Assembly (NCBI GenBank): GCA_021776135.1
Contig: JAJFGL010000041.1
Coordinates: 1-64,000 of the forward strand
DNA length: 64,000 nt
Direction: 5' to 3'
From: Kiloniellaceae bacterium
GTDB lineage: Bacteria; Pseudomonadota; Alphaproteobacteria; Kiloniellales; J153
The notes below the pieces were generated by a model. It saw only the letters and a program-made list of their open reading frames with translations, searched no databases and was not told the DNA's origin. The translations under genes were made by a program, and so were the position numbers. Below are positions 54,788-64,000 of this stretch, in pieces (within the stretch, counting starts at the first letter, position 1; every line of letters starts with the position of its first letter).

Positions 54788-54905
54788 CGCCTTTCAGGGG
54801 CTCGAGGGGCGCCGGAATGGCGGGTTACCGCCGCTTGCGGGGATTTCCGCCATCCTATAGGGTCCGCCCCGGTTCGACCCAGCCCAGGTGCTGGAACCGC
54901 CCACG

Positions 54906-54995
54906 GAGGGGTGCCGGAGTGGTCGAACGGGGCGGTCTCGAAAACCGTTGTACTCGCGAGAGTACCGTGGGTTCGAATCCCACCCCCTCCGCCAG
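54906..54995 (+). tRNA. tRNA-Ser(CGA)
   Basis: 90-nt type II tRNA with encoded CCA. Acceptor stem GGAGGGG pairs with CCCCTCC (54985-54991), discriminator G and CCA at 54993-54995. T arm GTGGG-TTCGAAT-CCCAC. Anticodon stem-loop GCGGT-CTCGAAA-ACCGT gives anticodon CGA, reading UCG. A long variable arm (GTACTCGCGAGAGTAC) is as expected for serine. A TATAGG at 54856-54861 could be its -10 element. Confidence 0.97.
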
Positions 54996-55280: not shown

Positions 55281-56640
55281 TCAGCCCCGGGAGAACCCCA
55301 AGACCTTTCGCTGTTCATGCCAGCCGATCGGGATGCCCTTTCTGAACCGCTCAAGCTCCAGGTCTGCCGGTTGGTAGCCGTCGAGTATGGCCTCGACAAT
55401 GTCGGGCGCCAGGAAAGCCAAGCGGAGGATGCGCCCGACATAACGCGGGGTGACACCCTCGGCCTTGGCGATAGTTTGGATCGAGGGGGCTTGCCCGGAG
55501 AACAATTTCTCCTTCCAGGCCTGGGCACGGGTCAGCGCCTTGATCAGCGCAGCGTTGATGCGCGGCCGCCTCCCCCTTGTATTTCCTGGTGGGATCACGA
55601 GCCGCATCTCGCCGGAGCAGAGCTTTAGCCGCGCGGGAACGTGGAGGGTCAAGGTGTCGCCCCCAACCTGCGGCCTGGGGGCCCCCTCCATGTCGATCGA
55701 TGACTCATCACCCAGCAAGGCATGCCTGAGCCCGTTGCGGCGGAGGACGATCCGGATCTCTCGTTCGCTCACAGTGACGCGGGCCACAATCCGGAGAACG
55801 AAGGCACGTTGCCCGGAGCCGCTCATTCGCGGCCATCGCTCGGCCTGATTCCTGGCCGCGACCATGAGACGCTCCTGGTCGCGGGGCGGGAGGGAGTCCC
55901 CAAGCTCGTCGATCACCAGGCCCGAGTCTTTGAGCCAGGCGGCGATCCGCGCGGCAACCAACTCTTCGATTTCTCGGGCCGGGATCCGGATGATCGACCC
56001 GGCATCGCCGTCGCGATGTTGGAGCAGAGCCTGGCCCACGTAGTAGCGGTAACGCACCCCGTTCTTGACCGCGTGGGACGGGCTCAGGCGGTTGCCGCGC
56101 TCGTCATGAAGAATCCCGGCGAGCAGGCTCGGCTCCCTGGATCCATTGCCCGCGCCGGTCGAGGGCATTACCGGCAAGCTTCGCCTGTACGGCGTCCCAG
56201 GTCTCGGCATCGATAATCGCCGCGTGCTGGCCCTCGTAGACTTCACCCTTGTGTGCGATCCGGCCGGCATAGAGCGGGTTGCCGAGGAGCTTGTAAATGT
56301 AGCCGCGGCTCAGGGGCCGGCCGCCGCGCATGCGTCCGTTTTCCGCCTTGCGGATCTTGGTCGCAAGTCTCAGCCAGTCAACCTCCTCTTTCACCCGGCG
56401 CACGTTACCGTGCTCCGGGTAGAGATGGAATACGGTCCGCACGGTCTCGGCCTCGGCTTCGTTGATCACCAGGCTGCGGTCCTTGGCCTCATAGCCGAGC
56501 GGCACGAAGCCCCCCATCCACATACCCTTCTTTTTGGAGGCGGCGATCTTGTCGCGGATTCGTTCGCCGGTGACCTCGCGCTCGAACTGGGCGAAGGAGA
56601 GCAGCATGTTGCGGGTGAGCGGCATTGACACGTTAAGTAG
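55281..56640 (-). pseudogene. Large serine recombinase, frameshifted and N-terminally truncated
   Basis: Two overlapping frames together make the middle and end of a large serine site-specific recombinase. The first (to about 56120) carries MLLSFAQFEREVTGERIRDKIAASKKKG, the recombinase domain GYIYKLLGNPLYAGRI and DAETWDAVQAKL; the second carries EPSLLAGILHDERGNRL through to LERFRKGIPIGWHEQRK. They are joined by a one-base shift near 56120-56150. The catalytic resolvase domain with the nucleophilic serine is absent: sequence upstream of about 56640 is an IS6-type fragment in the opposite orientation. Non-functional as it stands. Confidence 0.85.
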
Positions 56641-56676
56641 GTGGCCGCTGCGGTCAGGTGCCGTTACCGTCACTGC

Positions 56677-57067
56677 ATGGCACCGATATCCTTCAAGCGA
56701 CATCGCTTTCCGCCCGTGATTATCCAGTACGCGGTTTGGCTCTACGCTCGGTTCACCCTGTCGTTTCGCGATGTCGAGGATCTGCTGGCCGAGCGTGGCA
56801 TCGACGTTTCGAATGAGGCGGTCCGGCGCTGGTTCCTGAAATTCGGGCGGCTGATCGCTGGCAATCTTAAGCGTAGTCGCCCGCGAGCGAGCACTCGCTG
56901 GCATCTCGATGAGATGGTCATCAAAATCCGTGGCCGGAAACATTGGTTGTGGCGAGCGGTCGACGACGAAGGCGAGGTGCTCGACTTTCTGGTTCAGCCA
57001 CGGCGCTGTGCGCGGTCGGCACAGAGGCTCCTGCGAAAACTGTTGAAGAAGCAGGGCTTTGCGCCGA
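56677..57067 (+). mobile_element. IS6-family transposase, 3'-truncated fragment
   Basis: About 130 residues from the ATG at 56677 match the start of IS6 transposases: FKRHRFPPVIIQYAVWLYARFTLSFRDVEDLLAERGIDVSNEAVRRW, then RWHLDEMVIKIRGRKHWLWRAVDDEGEVLDFLV with the first catalytic D, ending KLLKKQGFAPK. The segment that should follow, with the second D and the E, is missing, and unrelated sequence takes over. No terminal inverted repeats or target duplications were found. It replaces the 5' end of the recombinase gene. 57068-57238 holds no gene I can support. Confidence 0.85.
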
Positions 57068-57238
57068 AGAGCGGGATCGATCTCACGCTCTCCACGCTCG
57101 GTCTCCCCAAATCGTTCAAGCATAGTGGTAGAGCAGGATGAAAGCCCCGCCCAGGAGGAGATCGGTCTTGATGGCTCTCCTTTCGGTTTCGTGATCCTGC
57201 GTAGGATGAGCAAAGAGGAAGAGGTGTGGCGTTGCCGC

Positions 57239-57898
57239 TTAGCGTGCCGGCTCGTTTTCGATCACAACCGTGCGTGTCGTGCCGCTGGGGCCCGGAAAGT
57301 CGGCGAAGAGGGCCCGAATCATGAGCGGAACGACGCGGCCGATTTCGGCTTCAGGTCCGACGCTTACGACCCGCCCTTCGAAGACTTTTTTCGTTTGGCC
57401 TTGTCGCCAGGCCCCTGCTTCCAGGAATTCCAGCATCAAGGTACGGCGATATATCGTGCGTGTTTGCTCGGTATAACCCAGAGGTACATGGCCGCCGCTT
57501 TCGTAGAGTCGGGCGGAAAAATCTTCGCCCTCTGCGGTCCGTCCCCGTATGACACTGTACCGGTCAGGGTAGTAACCATAGACGGGCACGGGTCTGCTTT
57601 CCGAGGTGCCGGCGCCGATACCGTAGTCCAGCCGGATGACATATTCGCTTTGTCCTAAGCCTTTGGCCTGGAGAAATCCGCGAGTCTGCAGTTCGTTGAC
57701 CACGCGGGTGGCGTAGGACGCGAACTCCAGGCTGGTGCTTTTGGCCTCATCGGCGGGGAATAAGACGAAGCTCCGTGGCGCCGGCGAGGAGGTCAAGGTA
57801 TGAAAACCCGTGACCTCCGCGCTGAAGGGTAGGCTTGCACATGCGGCTATCCCCAAAAGAACGGGCACTAAGAGGAAGACGGCGAGATATCTCATCAT
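57239..57898 (-). CDS. DUF4136-like lipoprotein
   Basis: 219 residues from the ATG at 57898. Signal peptide with lipobox LGIAACA, so the mature protein begins at Cys and is lipid-anchored. The body (FVLFPADEAKSTSLEFASYATRVVNELQTRGFLQ...VIRLDYGIG) resembles the DUF4136 fold. It is 46 bp downstream of the cytochrome reading frame and likely in the same transcript. Role unknown; possibly an outer-membrane partner of the cytochromes. Confidence 0.75.
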   Translation of the reverse strand: MMRYLAVFLLVPVLLGIAACASLPFSAEVTGFHTLTSSPAPRSFVLFPADEAKSTSLEFASYATRVVNELQTRGFLQAKGLGQSEYVIRLDYGIGAGTSESRPVPVYGYYPDRYSVIRGRTAEGEDFSARLYESGGHVPLGYTEQTRTIYRRTLMLEFLEAGAWRQGQTKKVFEGRVVSVGPEAEIGRVVPLMIRALFADFPGPSGTTRTVVIENEPAR

Positions 57899-57944
57899 AA
57901 TCCTTATATAGGGCGTTGATGGGCCCTTGGCGACCCGCCCGGAA

Positions 57945-58907
57945 TCACGGTCGTTGCCCAATAAATGCACGGTGCATATAGACGATTATGGCATCAATCT
58001 GCTCCGTTTCCAGGACCTGGCGGAAGGCCGGCATGGAGGTGTTGGGCAGTCCATCGAGTATCACTTGCCGCAGGCGGTCGTCGCTTAGGCGTGCCCTGAC
58101 AGGAAGGTCTGTAAAGGAAGGCGGACTGGGATCGAGGAAGGTGCCAATCCAATTGCGGCCCGTGCCATCCGCTGCGTGACATAGGGCGCAGGCTTGTTGA
58201 TACACGTTCTGGCCCGCGCGCTGCTGCGGTGTCAAATTAGCTAGGCCGGGGATTCGGTCGTGCAGGTTCTCTTCCTCATGATCATAGCCGCGTCCGTATT
58301 CCTCATGTTCGCCGTGGTCCTCTTGCCAGTTGCTTGGCTTCGGCAATAGCGAACCATCTGATTTTACGGTGCTTTCAGGCCGCTGCCCTTGGGCGGCGCC
58401 TTGGACCGTTCCCCGGATCGTGCCCTCATGGCAAACGCTGCAGGTGCGTCTGAACAGATCGAGGCCGGAGCGTTGCGTGGCGCTTAGCTCGATCTCTCGC
58501 GCGTCGACGGCCAAAGTCCCGCTGACGAAGGGAAAGGCGGCGCCGTTGCGGCGCTCGTGATCCGGCCAACCGTTTGCGGCGGTGTGATAGTGTGTGTTGT
58601 GGGCGCCGCAACGTACCAGGGCCTCGAGCACGAAGGCCGCGACGGCCTCGATCTCGGTATCGTCCAGGATCTCCGAGAAGGACTGCATAGCGCTCTGCGC
58701 GCGACCGTGCCGCACCGCCCGTTCGATCCGATCGGCGGTCAGGTCAGAACTCGTGGTAAAATCACGTGGTACCGGATATAGGTATTTCGAGGCTACTGTT
58801 TGCGCGTCGCCGTTGTACCCATGGCAGAAATAACAGCGGACGTTGTAGATGGCACGCCCACGCTCCAGAACCGTATTAGCCGTATCGTCACAACTCAGTT
58901 TTTTTTT
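57945..58907 (-). CDS. C-terminal triheme cytochrome c segment without its own start; probable -1 frameshift product of the upstream gene
   Basis: About 320 codons. Three haem motifs: CYFCH near 58830, CSVCH and CALCH, each in a class-I-like cytochrome domain. Between the last in-frame stop (inside the upstream gene) and the first haem there is no ATG, GTG or TTG; the first usable start (GTG at 58715) lies after that haem. There is no signal peptide, although c-type haem attachment needs export. The frame joins the upstream cytochrome by a -1 shift at the A9 run 58899-58907. A His/Glu-rich stretch (HGEHEEYGRGYDHEEENLHD) could bind metal. Confidence 0.75.
   Translation of the reverse strand, partial: KKKLSCDDTANTVLERGRAIYNVRCYFCHGYNGDAQTVASKYLYPVPRDFTTSSDLTADRIERAVRHGRAQSAMQSFSEILDDTEIEAVAAFVLEALVRCGAHNTHYHTAANGWPDHERRNGAAFPFVSGTLAVDAREIELSATQRSGLDLFRRTCSVCHEGTIRGTVQGAAQGQRPESTVKSDGSLLPKPSNWQEDHGEHEEYGRGYDHEEENLHDRIPGLANLTPQQRAGQNVYQQACALCHAADGTGRNWIGTFLDPSPPSFTDLPVRARLSDDRLRQVILDGLPNTSMPAFRQVLETEQIDAIIVYMHRAFIGQRP
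58895..58907 (-). promoter_or_regulatory. Candidate programmed -1 frameshift site (A9 followed by UGA)
   Basis: On the minus strand nine A (58907-58899) are followed by C and the in-frame TGA (58897-58895). Zero-frame phasing gives A-AAA-AAC-TGA. Re-reading one base puts the ribosome into the downstream haem-rich frame. I could not identify a clear downstream stimulatory hairpin by eye. Confidence 0.55.
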
Positions 58908-60031
58908 ACGGGCATGTGATCGGTATGGGATGCTGGTGCGGCCTGGGGCGCATGATCATGATCTGGTCCAGGCACTGCCGACAACTTCGCATTGGTAAAA
59001 GCCTGATACACATACTCAGCGACGTCGGCGATTTGCTGTAGAGTGAGCACCTTGGACCAGGCCGGCATATCGGTGCCGCGCACGCCCTTGGCGATCCCCT
59101 CGAAGAGGTTCGGCCGATCGTATTCGGCGCGGGCGCGCGGCGCGGTGAAATCCTTCGGCTTGCGGCGCATGAAATAGGCACGCGGGCCGCTCCCATCGCC
59201 TTTCATGCCATGACATTGGCTGCAATTGGCCTCATAGAATATCCGGCCGGCAGTCGTGTCGCCTATCAAGCCGATTGGGAAGGGGGCTTCCGGGTCCTTA
59301 ACGTGGCCACCATGATCGTGCCCGCCAGTTGTCGTGCTTTGCTTTGCCGCGACCTTGCCGTGTTCGGGGCTCTCAGGTTCGCCATCTTGTGGGGAGCGCC
59401 CGAAAGTCATGCGGATGTAGTCGATCACGGCCGCGAGCTCTTCTCGGTCATACTTCGTTGCGAACGGCATCATCGCGGTGCCGGTGACGCCGTAGGTCAC
59501 CGCGTGGATCATACGCTGACGCGATATTTCTTGCGCTTTCTTGGAGGTAAAATCGAAGGGCGGCGGATTCAGGCTGTTCTGGGCCCAAGACGCGGCATTG
59601 CCACGTTCGCCATGGCAGACGCTGCAGGTCCGGGCATAAATCCTGCGCCCAACACCGGCATCGGCTACCGGCGCGGGAAGCATCAGGGCTTCGCGTATAT
59701 AGTCGATAACTCGCGGCAACATATTCTTATCCAGAACGCGGTCCAACTGAGCAACTACCTCCGGCTCATGGTCTTCGCGAACCGCAGATATCATGGCATC
59801 CCGGGTCAAGCGGGCAACTGCTTCCGGGGAAGTAAAATCGACACTCGCACTCTCACCGGTACCCTCGGAACCATGACAGGCGGCGCAGTTGTGGACGTAG
59901 GCATCGCGCGTTGCGAGCATCTGTGCACCCGTGGCGAGCCTATCGTCGTGATCGTGTGCCCCCACGTCGGCGACATTAAAGAAGACGCACGCAAGGATAG
60001 TAGTCAGCCCAATCAGAAAACTTCGTCGCAT
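58895..60031 (-). CDS. Triheme cytochrome c, exported
   Basis: 378 residues from the ATG at 60031. Sec signal peptide (cleavage about DVGA-HD), then three cytochrome c domains with haem motifs CAACH (C49), CSVCH (C136) and CSQCH (C270), each followed by the methionine-type end (GTAMMP, GTDMP). The linker 215-250 is His/Gly-rich. It stops as GTA-AAA-AAA-AAC-TGA, where A-AAA-AAC is a canonical -1 slippery heptamer, and the next frame continues with three more haems. Either this stop is bypassed by frameshifting or the A-run is one base short. Longer N-terminal readings lack a signal peptide. Confidence 0.9.
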   Translation of the reverse strand: MRRSFLIGLTTILACVFFNVADVGAHDHDDRLATGAQMLATRDAYVHNCAACHGSEGTGESASVDFTSPEAVARLTRDAMISAVREDHEPEVVAQLDRVLDKNMLPRVIDYIREALMLPAPVADAGVGRRIYARTCSVCHGERGNAASWAQNSLNPPPFDFTSKKAQEISRQRMIHAVTYGVTGTAMMPFATKYDREELAAVIDYIRMTFGRSPQDGEPESPEHGKVAAKQSTTTGGHDHGGHVKDPEAPFPIGLIGDTTAGRIFYEANCSQCHGMKGDGSGPRAYFMRRKPKDFTAPRARAEYDRPNLFEGIAKGVRGTDMPAWSKVLTLQQIADVAEYVYQAFTNAKLSAVPGPDHDHAPQAAPASHTDHMPVKKN

Positions 60032-60192
60032 AAGTGCATTCGCTTTTTTTCTGGATCGGCTCGCCCGTTTTGGCGATCGCATCCAACTGTTATGTCCGGT
60101 CGAGCCGGGGGTGAAGTTATAGCTTTGATGAAAGAGGTTGCGAGTGTGACTTGTCAAGCCATAGACCTGACGCTCAAGGCGGCCGGCCCGGA

Positions 60193-61047
60193 TCACAAGA
60201 TGTGGCATTCAAAGCATAGGCCTTTTTCGGTGCGCGGCTTTCTGGCGTGGTCGTGGCTGTAGGGTACATGACAGGATACGCATCCGACGCGCCCATTGGG
60301 CAGGAGCACTTCGTCCGCCAGAGCGCTTCGGGGCCGGTAGTCGCCGCTTCGCGCCGCTTTGTCGTACTCGGCGCCAACGGGATGGTCCATGCCGCGAGGG
60401 GCCGGACTGACCGGAGAATCACTGAATCCCAACACGGCGACTTGTCGGCTGGATGGCATGCGGTCGTCATGGCAAATTAGACAACGCTGGGAATAAGGGT
60501 CCAGGCTGGCCGATGACCGGGACCAAACGTCGAAATGCGCCGACTTCAACAAGGATTCGCCCTTGTCGGGCATGGAATCGAAGAAGCTGGCGTCATGGCA
60601 GGACGTGCAGAGGTCCTCGCCGACCGACGCCGCGCGCATCAACCTCGGATTATCTCCATGCAAGGCGTGACAGGTACTACAGGTAAAACGTCCATCGCGG
60701 TCTAAAGGAAAGGCTGCGGAAAGCTGCCGCTCGGGACGAAATCCGCTAGGGTGGCTGGCATCTATGGCACCTCCATGGCACCCGCTGCAAAGCTGCTCCT
60801 GATCGGCGATCAAGCCCGCCGAGATCGGCTGTGCCGCGTCAGGGCTAGCCGTATGACACTCCTGGCAGTCGAGAACGGCATGGCTGCCGGTCGCCACCAC
60901 GACCGCCGGTTCCATACTATTCAACCCGGGCACCTTGAAGACGATGAGAGCAAGCAAGAGGCCGATTGAGGCATAGGCCGCGGCCACCGCAGCCAGGCGG
61001 AGGCGGTCGACAGCTTTATGCAGGGGGGCAAGCCCGGACTGCGGCAT
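60193..61047 (-). CDS. Membrane-anchored heptaheme cytochrome c
   Basis: 284 residues. One N-terminal transmembrane anchor (about 18-38), then seven CxxCH motifs with cysteines at about 61, 87, 123, 147, 189, 256 and 278 and several spare histidines placed as distal ligands (for example near 56, 99, 130, 171 and 266). The spacing is that of doubled-CxxCH multihaem proteins. Likely a periplasm-facing electron relay on the inner membrane that passes electrons to the soluble hexaheme protein next to it. No exact family recognised. Confidence 0.88.
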   Translation of the reverse strand: MPQSGLAPLHKAVDRLRLAAVAAAYASIGLLLALIVFKVPGLNSMEPAVVVATGSHAVLDCQECHTASPDAAQPISAGLIADQEQLCSGCHGGAIDASHPSGFRPERQLSAAFPLDRDGRFTCSTCHALHGDNPRLMRAASVGEDLCTSCHDASFFDSMPDKGESLLKSAHFDVWSRSSASLDPYSQRCLICHDDRMPSSRQVAVLGFSDSPVSPAPRGMDHPVGAEYDKAARSGDYRPRSALADEVLLPNGRVGCVSCHVPYSHDHARKPRTEKGLCFECHIL

Positions 61048-61162
61048 AGGGTATGCCCGTCGGTTGGGAAAACTAGTGCCTATCTAGCCCAAACGATTGA
61101 ACATTCCGTGAACTTCGGGACCCAAACTCGCCCTTGGGAGGCTGAAAACCGGCTCTCGCTGG

Positions 61163-61909
61163 CTAGAGACCGATTGCCATGCGGTGGCTCGGCATCTCCT
61201 CAAACCCGGCAAGTTGCTGAAGTCTCGGTACGTTCTTCAGCAGCACTAACTTGCTGTCGAGGATCTTGATTAGGCCGTCTGTGCTGAGGCGGCTGAAAGT
61301 CCGGCTGATCGTCTCGCTTGTAACGCCCAGATGGTCGGCTATGTCTTTGCGGGGCATCAGCGTATGCACCAAATTCGGATCCTCGTCATCCATCTTCCAG
61401 CGCTGGCTTAGCAACAGAAGGAAGGCCGCCAATCTCTCCGGCACCAACTTCCGGCCGAGTAATATCGCGTGGTCGTATTGCGCTTCGATTTCATCCATTG
61501 CCGTCACAAGCAGAGCGAAACATAGCGAGGGATGGATCCGTATAAAATCCGCGAATGGTTCTTTCTCGAACGCGCAAACCTCGAGATCGGTGATTGTCTC
61601 TGCCGTACAGTGGGCACCGGCGCTGCGTTTTATGCTGCCCAAAAGATCGCCGGTACCTAGGAACCCGGTGACTTGCTGCTTGCCGTTGCGTGCGCTGCGG
61701 TACAGTTTGACCATGCCCCGCGTGATGACGAAGACCTTTTTGATGTCATCATCCTGCTCGAAGATAATCTGGCTACGATCGAATCGGTATCTCTTGGATA
61801 ACGCCTGAAATTGCGCCCGTTCGATAGAGTTTATATGGGAGCACAAAGATATATGACGAACGACACAATGCCGGCAGTCCGGCCGTGCATTTTTTGTAAC
61901 GCAGAGCAT
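61163..61909 (-). CDS. FNR-type oxygen-sensing transcriptional regulator (Crp/Fnr family)
   Basis: 248 residues. N-terminal cysteines C12, C15 and C23 (C-x2-C-x7-C) plus C112 in LEVCAFE make the full set of [4Fe-4S] ligands in the FnrN-type spacing. cNMP-like sensor domain at about 40-150. The helix-turn-helix RKDIADHLGVTSETISRTFSRL contains the E-x2-S-R motif that reads TTGAT half-sites. It lies upstream of the multihaem genes on the same strand, 115 bp away, and probably activates them under low oxygen. Confidence 0.9.
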   Translation of the reverse strand: MLCVTKNARPDCRHCVVRHISLCSHINSIERAQFQALSKRYRFDRSQIIFEQDDDIKKVFVITRGMVKLYRSARNGKQQVTGFLGTGDLLGSIKRSAGAHCTAETITDLEVCAFEKEPFADFIRIHPSLCFALLVTAMDEIEAQYDHAILLGRKLVPERLAAFLLLLSQRWKMDDEDPNLVHTLMPRKDIADHLGVTSETISRTFSRLSTDGLIKILDSKLVLLKNVPRLQQLAGFEEMPSHRMAIGL

Positions 61910-62072
61910 TGCTGGCCTAGCCTGTTCGCATCGCTCAAAAGGGAGCGAAATGTGGATCCATGTGCGCAGCCGTTATCCGGCTGTGGATTTTCCCATGCTT
62001 GACCCGAGCAGCCAGCATGGCATTCTGTACCATAAGTGCCTGAATAATGGGGACGGAGCAACGAATTTGCGA

Positions 62073-62791
62073 ATGCCAAGGGTGCCCTTAATCGGGACCG
62101 CCATCGTTGCGGCATTGTTTCATTGGCAAATTATGTCTTGGCCGCCGATTTCAACCTCGATTCTTTCGTGAACCATATCGTGGATGCCTATGGCGGCGTT
62201 AAAGCGGTCGGATAGACTTCGGTCAGGCGTCAGCATGGCCGGACGATTTCGACAATGCGCGGTGGCGTGGTTGGGGCGGTGCTTCGCGAACTCAGCGGCT
62301 TTGACAAGTTTCGCATCGAGATCGCCTATCCCGGTCCTAAGGTCGAACTACGCATCCTTAACGGGGGCCAAGGATGGAATCAGAGCGGCACCGGGCCCTT
62401 GCCAATGCATGGGGCCATGCGCCTGCAGGCGGCGCGGCTGTCTTTGCCCCAACTCCTCGTTGCGCGTCGCAATGGGCGGAACGACGTCGGGCCGCTTAAG
62501 GGGCGTGATGGCGCTGACTTGCGTCGTCTTCATCTGCCGCTTGATCCGGGATTGTCCCTTTTCATCGATGCCGATCTGGAGACCGGACTGGTTAAACGCT
62601 CGATCGGGGTGATCATGGTGAACGGTCAAGCCATAGAATTCATTTCGGAATATGCTGATTTCAAGGTCTGGGAAGGAATCATGCTTCCAGGCCGAGAGAA
62701 ACAATACGCGATGGGCCAATACATCGGCTATACCATGATCGATCTAGTCGAATTTCCCCAGGAATTGATGAACGAGCGGTTCCAACCGTGA
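62073..62791 (+). pseudogene. Exported LolA-like protein gene, inactivated by a frameshift and an in-frame stop
   Basis: The main piece (62255-62791, 178 residues) starts mid-domain. Upstream in the same frame the sequence continues as LAADFNLDSFVNHIVDAYGGVKAVG, a TAG at 62213-62215, then TSVRRQHGRTISTMRGG. The residues preceding LAADF only make a proper signal peptide (MPRVPLIGTAIVAALF) in another frame from 62073. So one frameshift near 62115-62130 and one nonsense codon break the gene. The body (FRIEIAYPGPKVELRILNGGQGWNQSG) looks like an exported beta-sheet protein. Family call is tentative. Confidence 0.65.
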
Positions 62792-62812
62792 CCAAGAACC
62801 GGTGACAGCAGC

Positions 62813-62826
62813 TTGATTTGGATCAT
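62813..62826. promoter_or_regulatory. FNR-box-like site
   Basis: TTGAT-TTGG-ATCAT matches the FNR/FixK consensus TTGAT-N4-ATCAA at nine of ten defined positions. It lies 194 bp before the NHL lipoprotein start and about 900 bp from the FNR-type gene that could bind it. Confidence 0.6.
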
Positions 62827-62909
62827 TGAGGTTCCCAGTCGTAAGGTGATATTTGACTGGCTAAGCCATATGCACGTGGATCGCGAGTCCATACCGGCAG
62901 AAACACAAT

Positions 62910-62969
62910 GCGGTTTGACTAAGACCATGCCTTATCCAAGCGGTTTGACTAAGACCATGCCTTATCCAA
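62910..62969. repeat. Perfect 30-bp tandem duplication
   Basis: The unit starting GCGGTTTGACTAAGACC occupies 62910-62939 and again 62940-62969 without change. It lies between the FNR-box-like site and the NHL lipoprotein start. The rest of 62792-63019 shows no gene of its own. The duplication is 30 bp, so it would keep any reading frame crossing it. Confidence 0.95.
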
Positions 62970-63019
62970 CAGCTTCGGCGCCCGCCCGCCTTGCGGGGTG
63001 CAATTTTTCTCAGCGGATC

Positions 63020-64000
63020 ATGCGACTTCCAGCGCAATGGCTTCGATTCCCGTGGGCCGCCGCGTTTCTGCTGACGGTCGCGGCCTGCGCCGCGCCGGAG
63101 CCGCCGAAAGCGGTAGAGATCGTATATCCGCCCGCACCTGAAGAACCGCGCTACTACTATGATCGGACCCTTTACGGGAGCACGAACGTCAAACCGGAAA
63201 CCTCGACCGACCGGCTGCGGCGTTTCGCGACCGGGCAGTCGGAGCGGGGCCGGGGGTTCGCGAAGCCGTTCGACGTGCGGGCCGACAATGGGCGCATATT
63301 TATCAGCGACACCGTGAACCGGCGTGTGGCGGTTCTCGATTTTCCGCAGCAACGCTATTACGAGATAGGGACACAGGGGGTCGGTCGCCTGGCCAAGCCG
63401 CTCGGCCTGACCACCGACGCTCAGGGCCATCTCTATGTGGTTGACGGCACGGCGAAGCGGATCCTGGTTTACGATCTGGAAGGCACCTACCTGAAAAGCA
63501 TCGGGACTGGAGAAATTCTGTCGCGCCCGTCGGGAATTGCCGTGAACCCAGATGGGTCCAGGATCTACGTCGTCGATACCGGGGGCGTGTCCAGCAAGGA
63601 TCATACGATCCACGTCTTCGGCCCGGACGGCAAGCACCTGTTTAATATAGGGACCCGCGGAAAGGAAGATGGGAATCTTAACCTACCGCTCATGGCGGCC
63701 ATGGCCCCGGATGGCAACTTGTACGTCTCCGACAGCGGAAACTTCCGGGTTCAGGTCTTCGATCCGGATGGCAACTTCGTCAAGACCATCGGCAGTATCG
63801 GCCGTCGGCCCGGGCAGTTCTCACATCCCAAGGGGATCGCAGTCGATTCCGACGGCAGGATCTTCATCGTCGATAGCGGATTCGCGAATTTCCAGATCTT
63901 CGATAACCAGGGCCAGATCCTTTTATTCGTAGGTGAAAGAAACGAACGCGGCGGGCCCGGTCAATATATTCTGCCGTCGGGAATTTCGGTCGACGTGGAC
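63020..64000 (+). CDS. NHL-repeat six-bladed beta-propeller lipoprotein (3' end outside window)
   Basis: 327 codons present. The ATG at 63020 gives a signal peptide with lipobox LTVAACA, so the protein is lipid-anchored. It is followed by NHL/6-bladed propeller repeats: FAKPFDVRADNGRIFISDTVNRRVAVLDF, LAKPLGLTTDAQGHLYVVDG, RPSGIAVNPDGSRIYVVDT, and FSHPKGIAVDSDGRIFIVDSG. Such propellers are scaffolds and often accompany multihaem cytochromes in electron-conduit gene sets. An in-frame ATG at 62927 inside the tandem repeat is possible but would bury the signal peptide. Confidence 0.85.
   Translation, partial: MRLPAQWLRFPWAAAFLLTVAACAAPEPPKAVEIVYPPAPEEPRYYYDRTLYGSTNVKPETSTDRLRRFATGQSERGRGFAKPFDVRADNGRIFISDTVNRRVAVLDFPQQRYYEIGTQGVGRLAKPLGLTTDAQGHLYVVDGTAKRILVYDLEGTYLKSIGTGEILSRPSGIAVNPDGSRIYVVDTGGVSSKDHTIHVFGPDGKHLFNIGTRGKEDGNLNLPLMAAMAPDGNLYVSDSGNFRVQVFDPDGNFVKTIGSIGRRPGQFSHPKGIAVDSDGRIFIVDSGFANFQIFDNQGQILLFVGERNERGGPGQYILPSGISVDVD

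Follow-up and report, generated by a model that had tools for sequence, protein, structure and literature searches.

A Uet-type porin-cytochrome locus in a Kiloniellaceae-like alphaproteobacterium, with a putative slippage site in its divergent left arm

What kind of system do the multihaem cytochrome genes at the right end of this Kiloniellaceae sequence belong to? The window, i.e. the whole stretch of 64,000 nt that was analyzed, represents bases 1–64000 of a contig of 107,993 bp from a genome that is 97.9% complete. The initial annotation had named a 3+3-haem exported protein, a membrane-anchored 7-haem protein, an FNR-type regulator, a DUF4136 lipoprotein and an NHL propeller lipoprotein, and all five are indeed present. 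It had also suggested that the sequence be extended past 64 kb to look for porin genes. The locus runs from 57,239 to approximately 88,869 (about 32 kb; all coordinates are in the numbering of the window), and the window holds only about its left fifth. The earlier impression that no MtrB-like barrel is encoded here does not hold for the locus as a whole, since a predicted 28-strand barrel and an 11-haem cytochrome lie just past the window edge.

The plus-strand arm begins with an NHL beta-propeller lipoprotein that is similar to UetH (probable start at 63020, based on homologues and the lipobox; end at 64099, beyond the window). Further genes past the window edge encode two OmcE-like tetrahaem proteins (UetA1, 64355–65167; UetA2, 65242–66156), a PPIase (UetB, 66132–67313), the outer-membrane barrel (UetC, 67360–69159), a pair of trihaem cytochromes (69289–69711; the second ends at 70483), two proteins of no assigned role and a PilJ-domain protein, a second NHL protein (73235–74344) and the 11-haem cytochrome (UetJ, 74348–76759). 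ResB, CcsA and a TPR-thioredoxin (76741–79635) represent cytochrome c maturation; a CcmH gene (System I) is found elsewhere in the genome, so the ResB/CcsA pair of the locus is an additional one. Then follow two Reg_prop propellers, a Sel1-like ORF (named by eye), a histidine kinase, a response regulator and two further trihaem proteins. The right end is formed by a haem synthesis gene, that of 5-aminolevulinate synthase (ALAS, 86944–88188), and a globin gene (88255–88869), which are also linked in the congener G003. The genome has one more match to the ALAS model, but it scores below the cut-off, and the ALAS of the locus may therefore be the only one.

This gene content has been described before. 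The Uet (undecahaem electron transfer) set was defined in Gallionella and Tenderiales ('Ca. Tenderia'), where its role is a prediction, and it comprises the tetrahaem UetA, the PPIase UetB, the barrel UetC, the trihaem UetD/E/G, the NHL proteins UetH/I and the undecahaem UetJ (PMC10734462). Following the definitions of that paper, counterparts of UetA, UetB, UetD/E/G and UetH/I were all found in the locus, and the cytochrome at 74348–76759 has the 11 CxxCH motifs of a UetJ. Other genomes were searched for the same neighbourhood, as the initial annotation had advised. With the 11-haem protein as query, genome contigs yielded 277 UetJ relatives. We compared the neighbourhoods of the best 80 of these 277, and most long loci among them showed the order tetrahaem, PPIase, barrel, trihaem, NHL, UetJ, ResB, CcsA. 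The long loci belong to Alpha-, Beta- and Gammaproteobacteria and Magnetococcales; where contigs are short, the order is in many cases visible only in part. Our locus has this recurring order. The Tenderia genome compared here was a 'Candidatus Tenderia' MAG; its UetJ is 51% identical, and genes for NHL and trihaem proteins adjoin it.

Judged by its gene content and order, the locus is a Uet-type porin-cytochrome locus, a kind already described though only predicted, and a literature search found no biochemical demonstration of any Uet system. The hunch of an electron conduit in the initial annotation agrees well with this assignment. Its expectation of an undescribed system does not: it had itself stated that novelty would be refuted by downstream genes in the order of a known pathway, and Uet is such a pathway, albeit not one of those it had listed. 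It is highly probable that the noted genes form the left, divergent arm of a Uet-type locus for extracellular electron transfer, which a Kiloniellaceae-like alphaproteobacterium acquired horizontally. With the Uet loci of 'Ca. Tenderia electrophaga' and Gallionella the locus shares UetA, UetB, UetC, UetD/E/G, UetH/I and UetJ in the recurring order. It differs from them in its alphaproteobacterial host, in that its divergent arm carries the FNR-type regulator and a membrane protein with seven haems, in having two uetA copies and a junction with nine adenines (A9) in the upstream cytochrome pair, and in the linked ALAS and globin genes.

Other conduits would work alike, with a large barrel and a multihaem cytochrome at the outer membrane, namely MtrCAB, MtoAB and PioAB. 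MtrB is among the structural matches of UetC; in fact, the predicted UetC structure (pLDDT 89.2) reaches its highest query TM-score among the solved matches listed, 0.43, with MtrB. However, many unrelated barrels score alike, so this unspecific comparison shows a barrel and no more. In contrast to the structural likeness, there is no sequence membership in these families: no NCBIfam model matched UetC at E 0.01, and the DmsE-family model gave 30.5 bits for UetJ and 33.2 bits for the heptahaem protein, against a cut-off of 192.2. Both scores are too low for the decahaem MtrA/DmsE family, which excludes an MtrAB identity, and family scores likewise exclude a Methylobacter-type PCC. PCC3 is characterized by very large MHCs with medians of 34 and 21 haems (PMC5566968); the largest cytochrome here has 11, far too few for this type. 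A sequence relationship was found to the Geobacter OmcE nanowire (PDB 7tfs), which is matched by the two UetA copies (E 5e-23 and 1e-20) and by the N-terminus of UetJ (E 2e-23). In UetA1, all four CxxCH motifs and four further His residues align with OmcE. UetJ differs from OmcE in its seven further haems, and the likeness of UetA to the filament is one of sequence.

The left arm lies on the minus strand and comprises, in the order leading away from the plus-strand arm, the FNR-type regulator, the heptahaem protein, the trihaem ORF1, ORF2 and the DUF4136 lipoprotein. This five-gene order is kept in two congeners (G002 and G003) at protein identities of 62–78%, which argues against a chance grouping; in G006, the FNR and heptahaem genes are also kept and the contig stops there. 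The regulator (61163–61909) has a C-x2-C-x7-C pattern of the iron-sulfur type near its N-terminus and matches NCBIfam FnrL with E 2e-38, below the cut-off. The heptahaem protein (60193–61047) contains seven CxxCH motifs and an N-terminal membrane anchor (helix at residues 10–38), as had been noted before. Of the 43 Uet genomes searched, 12 have a relative of it, which in one case is weak and partial, and no relative with a solved structure was found by sequence. Its AlphaFold model is poor (pLDDT 58.5) and too weak for a fold search, which leaves a quinol-linked role as a guess. The DUF4136 lipoprotein gene (57239–57970), the last of the arm, encodes a lipobox (IAAC) and matches Pfam with E 1.3e-7, just under the cut-off. 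It is present in two congeners, in one of them as a fragment only.

In a sample of 385 alphaproteobacterial genomes, Uet was found in a single one, that of the window itself. Among the near relatives, two of the three other congeners and one other genome of the family carry it. The rarity of Uet in Alphaproteobacteria looks new. In the UetJ tree, a branch with a support of 99.7 separates the eight rows labelled alphaproteobacterial from all others, the nearest of which are gammaproteobacterial; one of the eight (L031 from G798) bears no more specific title than 'Proteobacteria bacterium'. The horizontal gain that had been proposed for the block is supported by its lower GC content, by flanks that are not shared with its relatives and by recombinase and IS debris. 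The GC content of the island is 58.3% versus 63.6%, GC and GC3 are both below those of the left flank, and the genes flanking the block differ from those in G002 and G003. The mobile stretch has a tRNA-Ser(CGA) gene at its left edge (54905–54994, plus strand, ARAGORN). Beside it lies the remnant of an interrupted serine recombinase (55281–57213, minus strand) in two overlapping ORFs, of which that at 56104–57213 matches Pfam Recombinase (E 1e-10) and Resolvase; the ORF at 55281–56270 has no Pfam match. A fragment of an IS240/IS6-type transposase (56641–57141, plus strand; Pfam DDE_Tnp_IS240, E 3e-17) completes the debris that the initial annotation had recognized. A second transposase of the same Pfam family is located at 100319–101014.

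The presence of an FNR-type regulator raises the question of oxygen control. An FNR-box match, TTGATTTGGATCAT, is found at 62813–62826 on the plus strand, some 190 bp ahead of where the NHL gene probably starts, and has counterparts with one or two mismatches in three relatives. Further matches precede uetA1 (64253) and, weaker, the ALAS gene (86717). Counterparts exist for the first two sites in G002, for all three in G003 and for the first two in G006, where the second is perfect; several of these have two mismatches. With at most one mismatch, the 108-kb contig contains three sites versus 0.87 expected, two of which precede Uet genes, while the third (98073) is outside the locus. When up to two mismatches are allowed, the window has 28 sites versus 11 expected. 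From the regulator and the boxes we infer that the locus is probably under FNR control, in line with the FNR link made in the initial annotation.

The description of a 3+3-haem protein was correct as well, although its halves are two ORFs in different frames. ORF1 (58895–60208, minus strand; probable start an ATG near 60031) encodes an exported trihaem cytochrome with three cbb3-III-type domains. As listed (57945–58715), ORF2 would encode only two haem motifs; this version was dropped because the open frame extends upstream (57945–58955, minus strand) and adds a third CxxCH (CYFCH). At the junction lies the A9 run (58899–58907, minus strand), the sole A or T run of at least nine in the 108-kb contig. 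ORF1 ends in VKKN and a stop, the TGA standing immediately after the run. The frame of ORF2 is −1 relative to ORF1, and its coding similarity reaches back to the A-run, farther upstream than any start that it could use. Neither a signal peptide nor a start codon that could serve ahead of the first haem was found in ORF2.

Every genome of the alphaproteobacterial Uet clade with a readable junction, seven in all, shows the same arrangement (G006 and G797, with identical heptahaem proteins, are apparently one genome and were counted once). Six of them have A9 (G000, G002, G003, G797, G798 and G799) and G806 has A10; the shift is always −1, the zero-frame stop lies at most 3 nt from the end of the run, and the fused alignment is continuous. 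In the control loci outside the clade (L164, in which no ORF1 was called, was left out), the longest A-run at the junction measured only 2–6 in 13 of 13 proteobacterial cases. ORF2 has a signal-like start in 12 of these, and in the thirteenth (L175, Thalassotalea) a hydrophobic N-terminus was missed by the criterion. The upstream trihaem cytochrome itself, the first member of the pair, has matches in 40 of the 43 Uet genomes searched and sits on the Uet contig, 12–20 kb upstream of uetJ, in those cases where positions were compared. In L161 (G827, Magnetococcales), the ORF1 homologue is an open frame of 505 aa with no adjoining ORF2 in the stretch read.

A homopolymer error in sequencing could conceivably have produced the frame break, the gene then being a plain hexahaem ORF: such runs are prone to error, at least six of the seven genomes were assembled from metagenomes, and the alignment of the fused product is continuous. 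However, such an error is improbable as an explanation for exactly nine A's in six genomes from several projects and ten in the seventh, always with the same relative frame, and for a run that has no comparable counterpart in the 13 controls. Moreover, the three Lys codons at the run are AAA in every clade genome. The share of AAA among the Lys codons of the contig is 288/939 (0.31), and it seems unlikely that three AAA would be kept in every lineage by codon drift alone, even if the lineages are not fully independent. Even less probable is a reading in which the trihaem ORF1 protein alone matters because ORF2 is a decaying frame or gives a separate product that is not exported. In the clade genomes, ORF2 indeed has neither a signal peptide nor its own usable start, and the ATG right after the run in G799 has no signal after it. 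Nevertheless, ORF2 is open in seven genomes, retains its haem motifs and aligns over its whole length. For haem to be attached to a c-type cytochrome, the protein has to be exported, and only the fusion would provide for this.

A rival of another kind retains the frame change and ascribes it to the ribosome. The run contains the heptamer A_AAA_AAC, which is among the A-rich heptamers at prokaryotic frame transitions (PMC3711429), and −1 ribosomal frameshifting is a possibility to be taken seriously, if an unlikely one. Against it, no downstream hairpin clearly exceeds the shuffled sequences in most genomes (folds lie within about 2 sd; that of G806, with A10, is 1.7 sd more stable), so a hairpin was rejected as stimulator, and inspection by eye showed no Shine-Dalgarno-like stimulator. 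RNA polymerase, on the other hand, slips efficiently on runs of nine A or T, as known from Thermus thermophilus dnaX (PMC5009743). There, too, slippage on a nine-base homopolymer gives a second product from another frame; the long product of dnaX is the zero-frame one, whereas here the long product would need the slip and would join two cytochrome halves. With a conserved slippery run, a constant frame relation and no alternative start for an exported ORF2, programmed slippage leading to a hexahaem fusion is the best reading of these junctions. We consider it fairly probable that, in the alphaproteobacterial Uet loci, transcriptional slippage on the conserved A9 yields a trihaem and a hexahaem cytochrome from one gene, within an oxygen-switched conduit with OmcE-like wires. 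A literature search found no multihaem cytochrome made by slippage.

How might these parts work together? Electrons would be exchanged among the heptahaem protein in the inner membrane, the cytochromes in the periplasm, the UetC/UetJ conduit and extracellular wires resembling OmcE. RNA polymerase (less likely the ribosome) would slip on A9, so that one gene gives the trihaem protein and a hexahaem fusion that is exported, and FNR would switch the conduit at low oxygen. The direction of flow would be set by the partner. In Tenderia and Gallionella, Uet is proposed to take up electrons (PMC10734462). It was described in cathode- and iron-oxidizing bacteria, and a Uet locus is also found in Ramlibacter lithotrophicus; import through Fe(II) or electrode oxidation is thus a real, if somewhat less likely, option here. 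However, no RuBisCO was found in the 97.9% complete genome, and the locus has an FNR-type regulator and FNR boxes. Both features are more usual with anaerobic respiration and neither is decisive, but they make us lean slightly towards outward flow to an oxidant at low oxygen. Separately, G000 encodes on contig C3 (about 82862–84750; L012, L014) an FHA-domain protein with 10 CxxCH motifs, which adjoins a large, maybe outer-membrane ORF and an upstream membrane protein and could belong to a second electron-transfer locus.

Three aspects appear to be new: the rarity of Uet in Alphaproteobacteria, the FNR-box matches at matching places in relatives and the A-run at the ORF junction. At this junction, programmed slippage may have been recognized for the first time in a multihaem cytochrome. 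Since 40 of the 43 Uet genomes searched have matches to the first cytochrome of the upstream pair, this pair seems to accompany the uetA-J set as described. A predicted, unproven electron-transfer pathway is now placed in Alphaproteobacteria, with a putative oxygen switch that can be tested.
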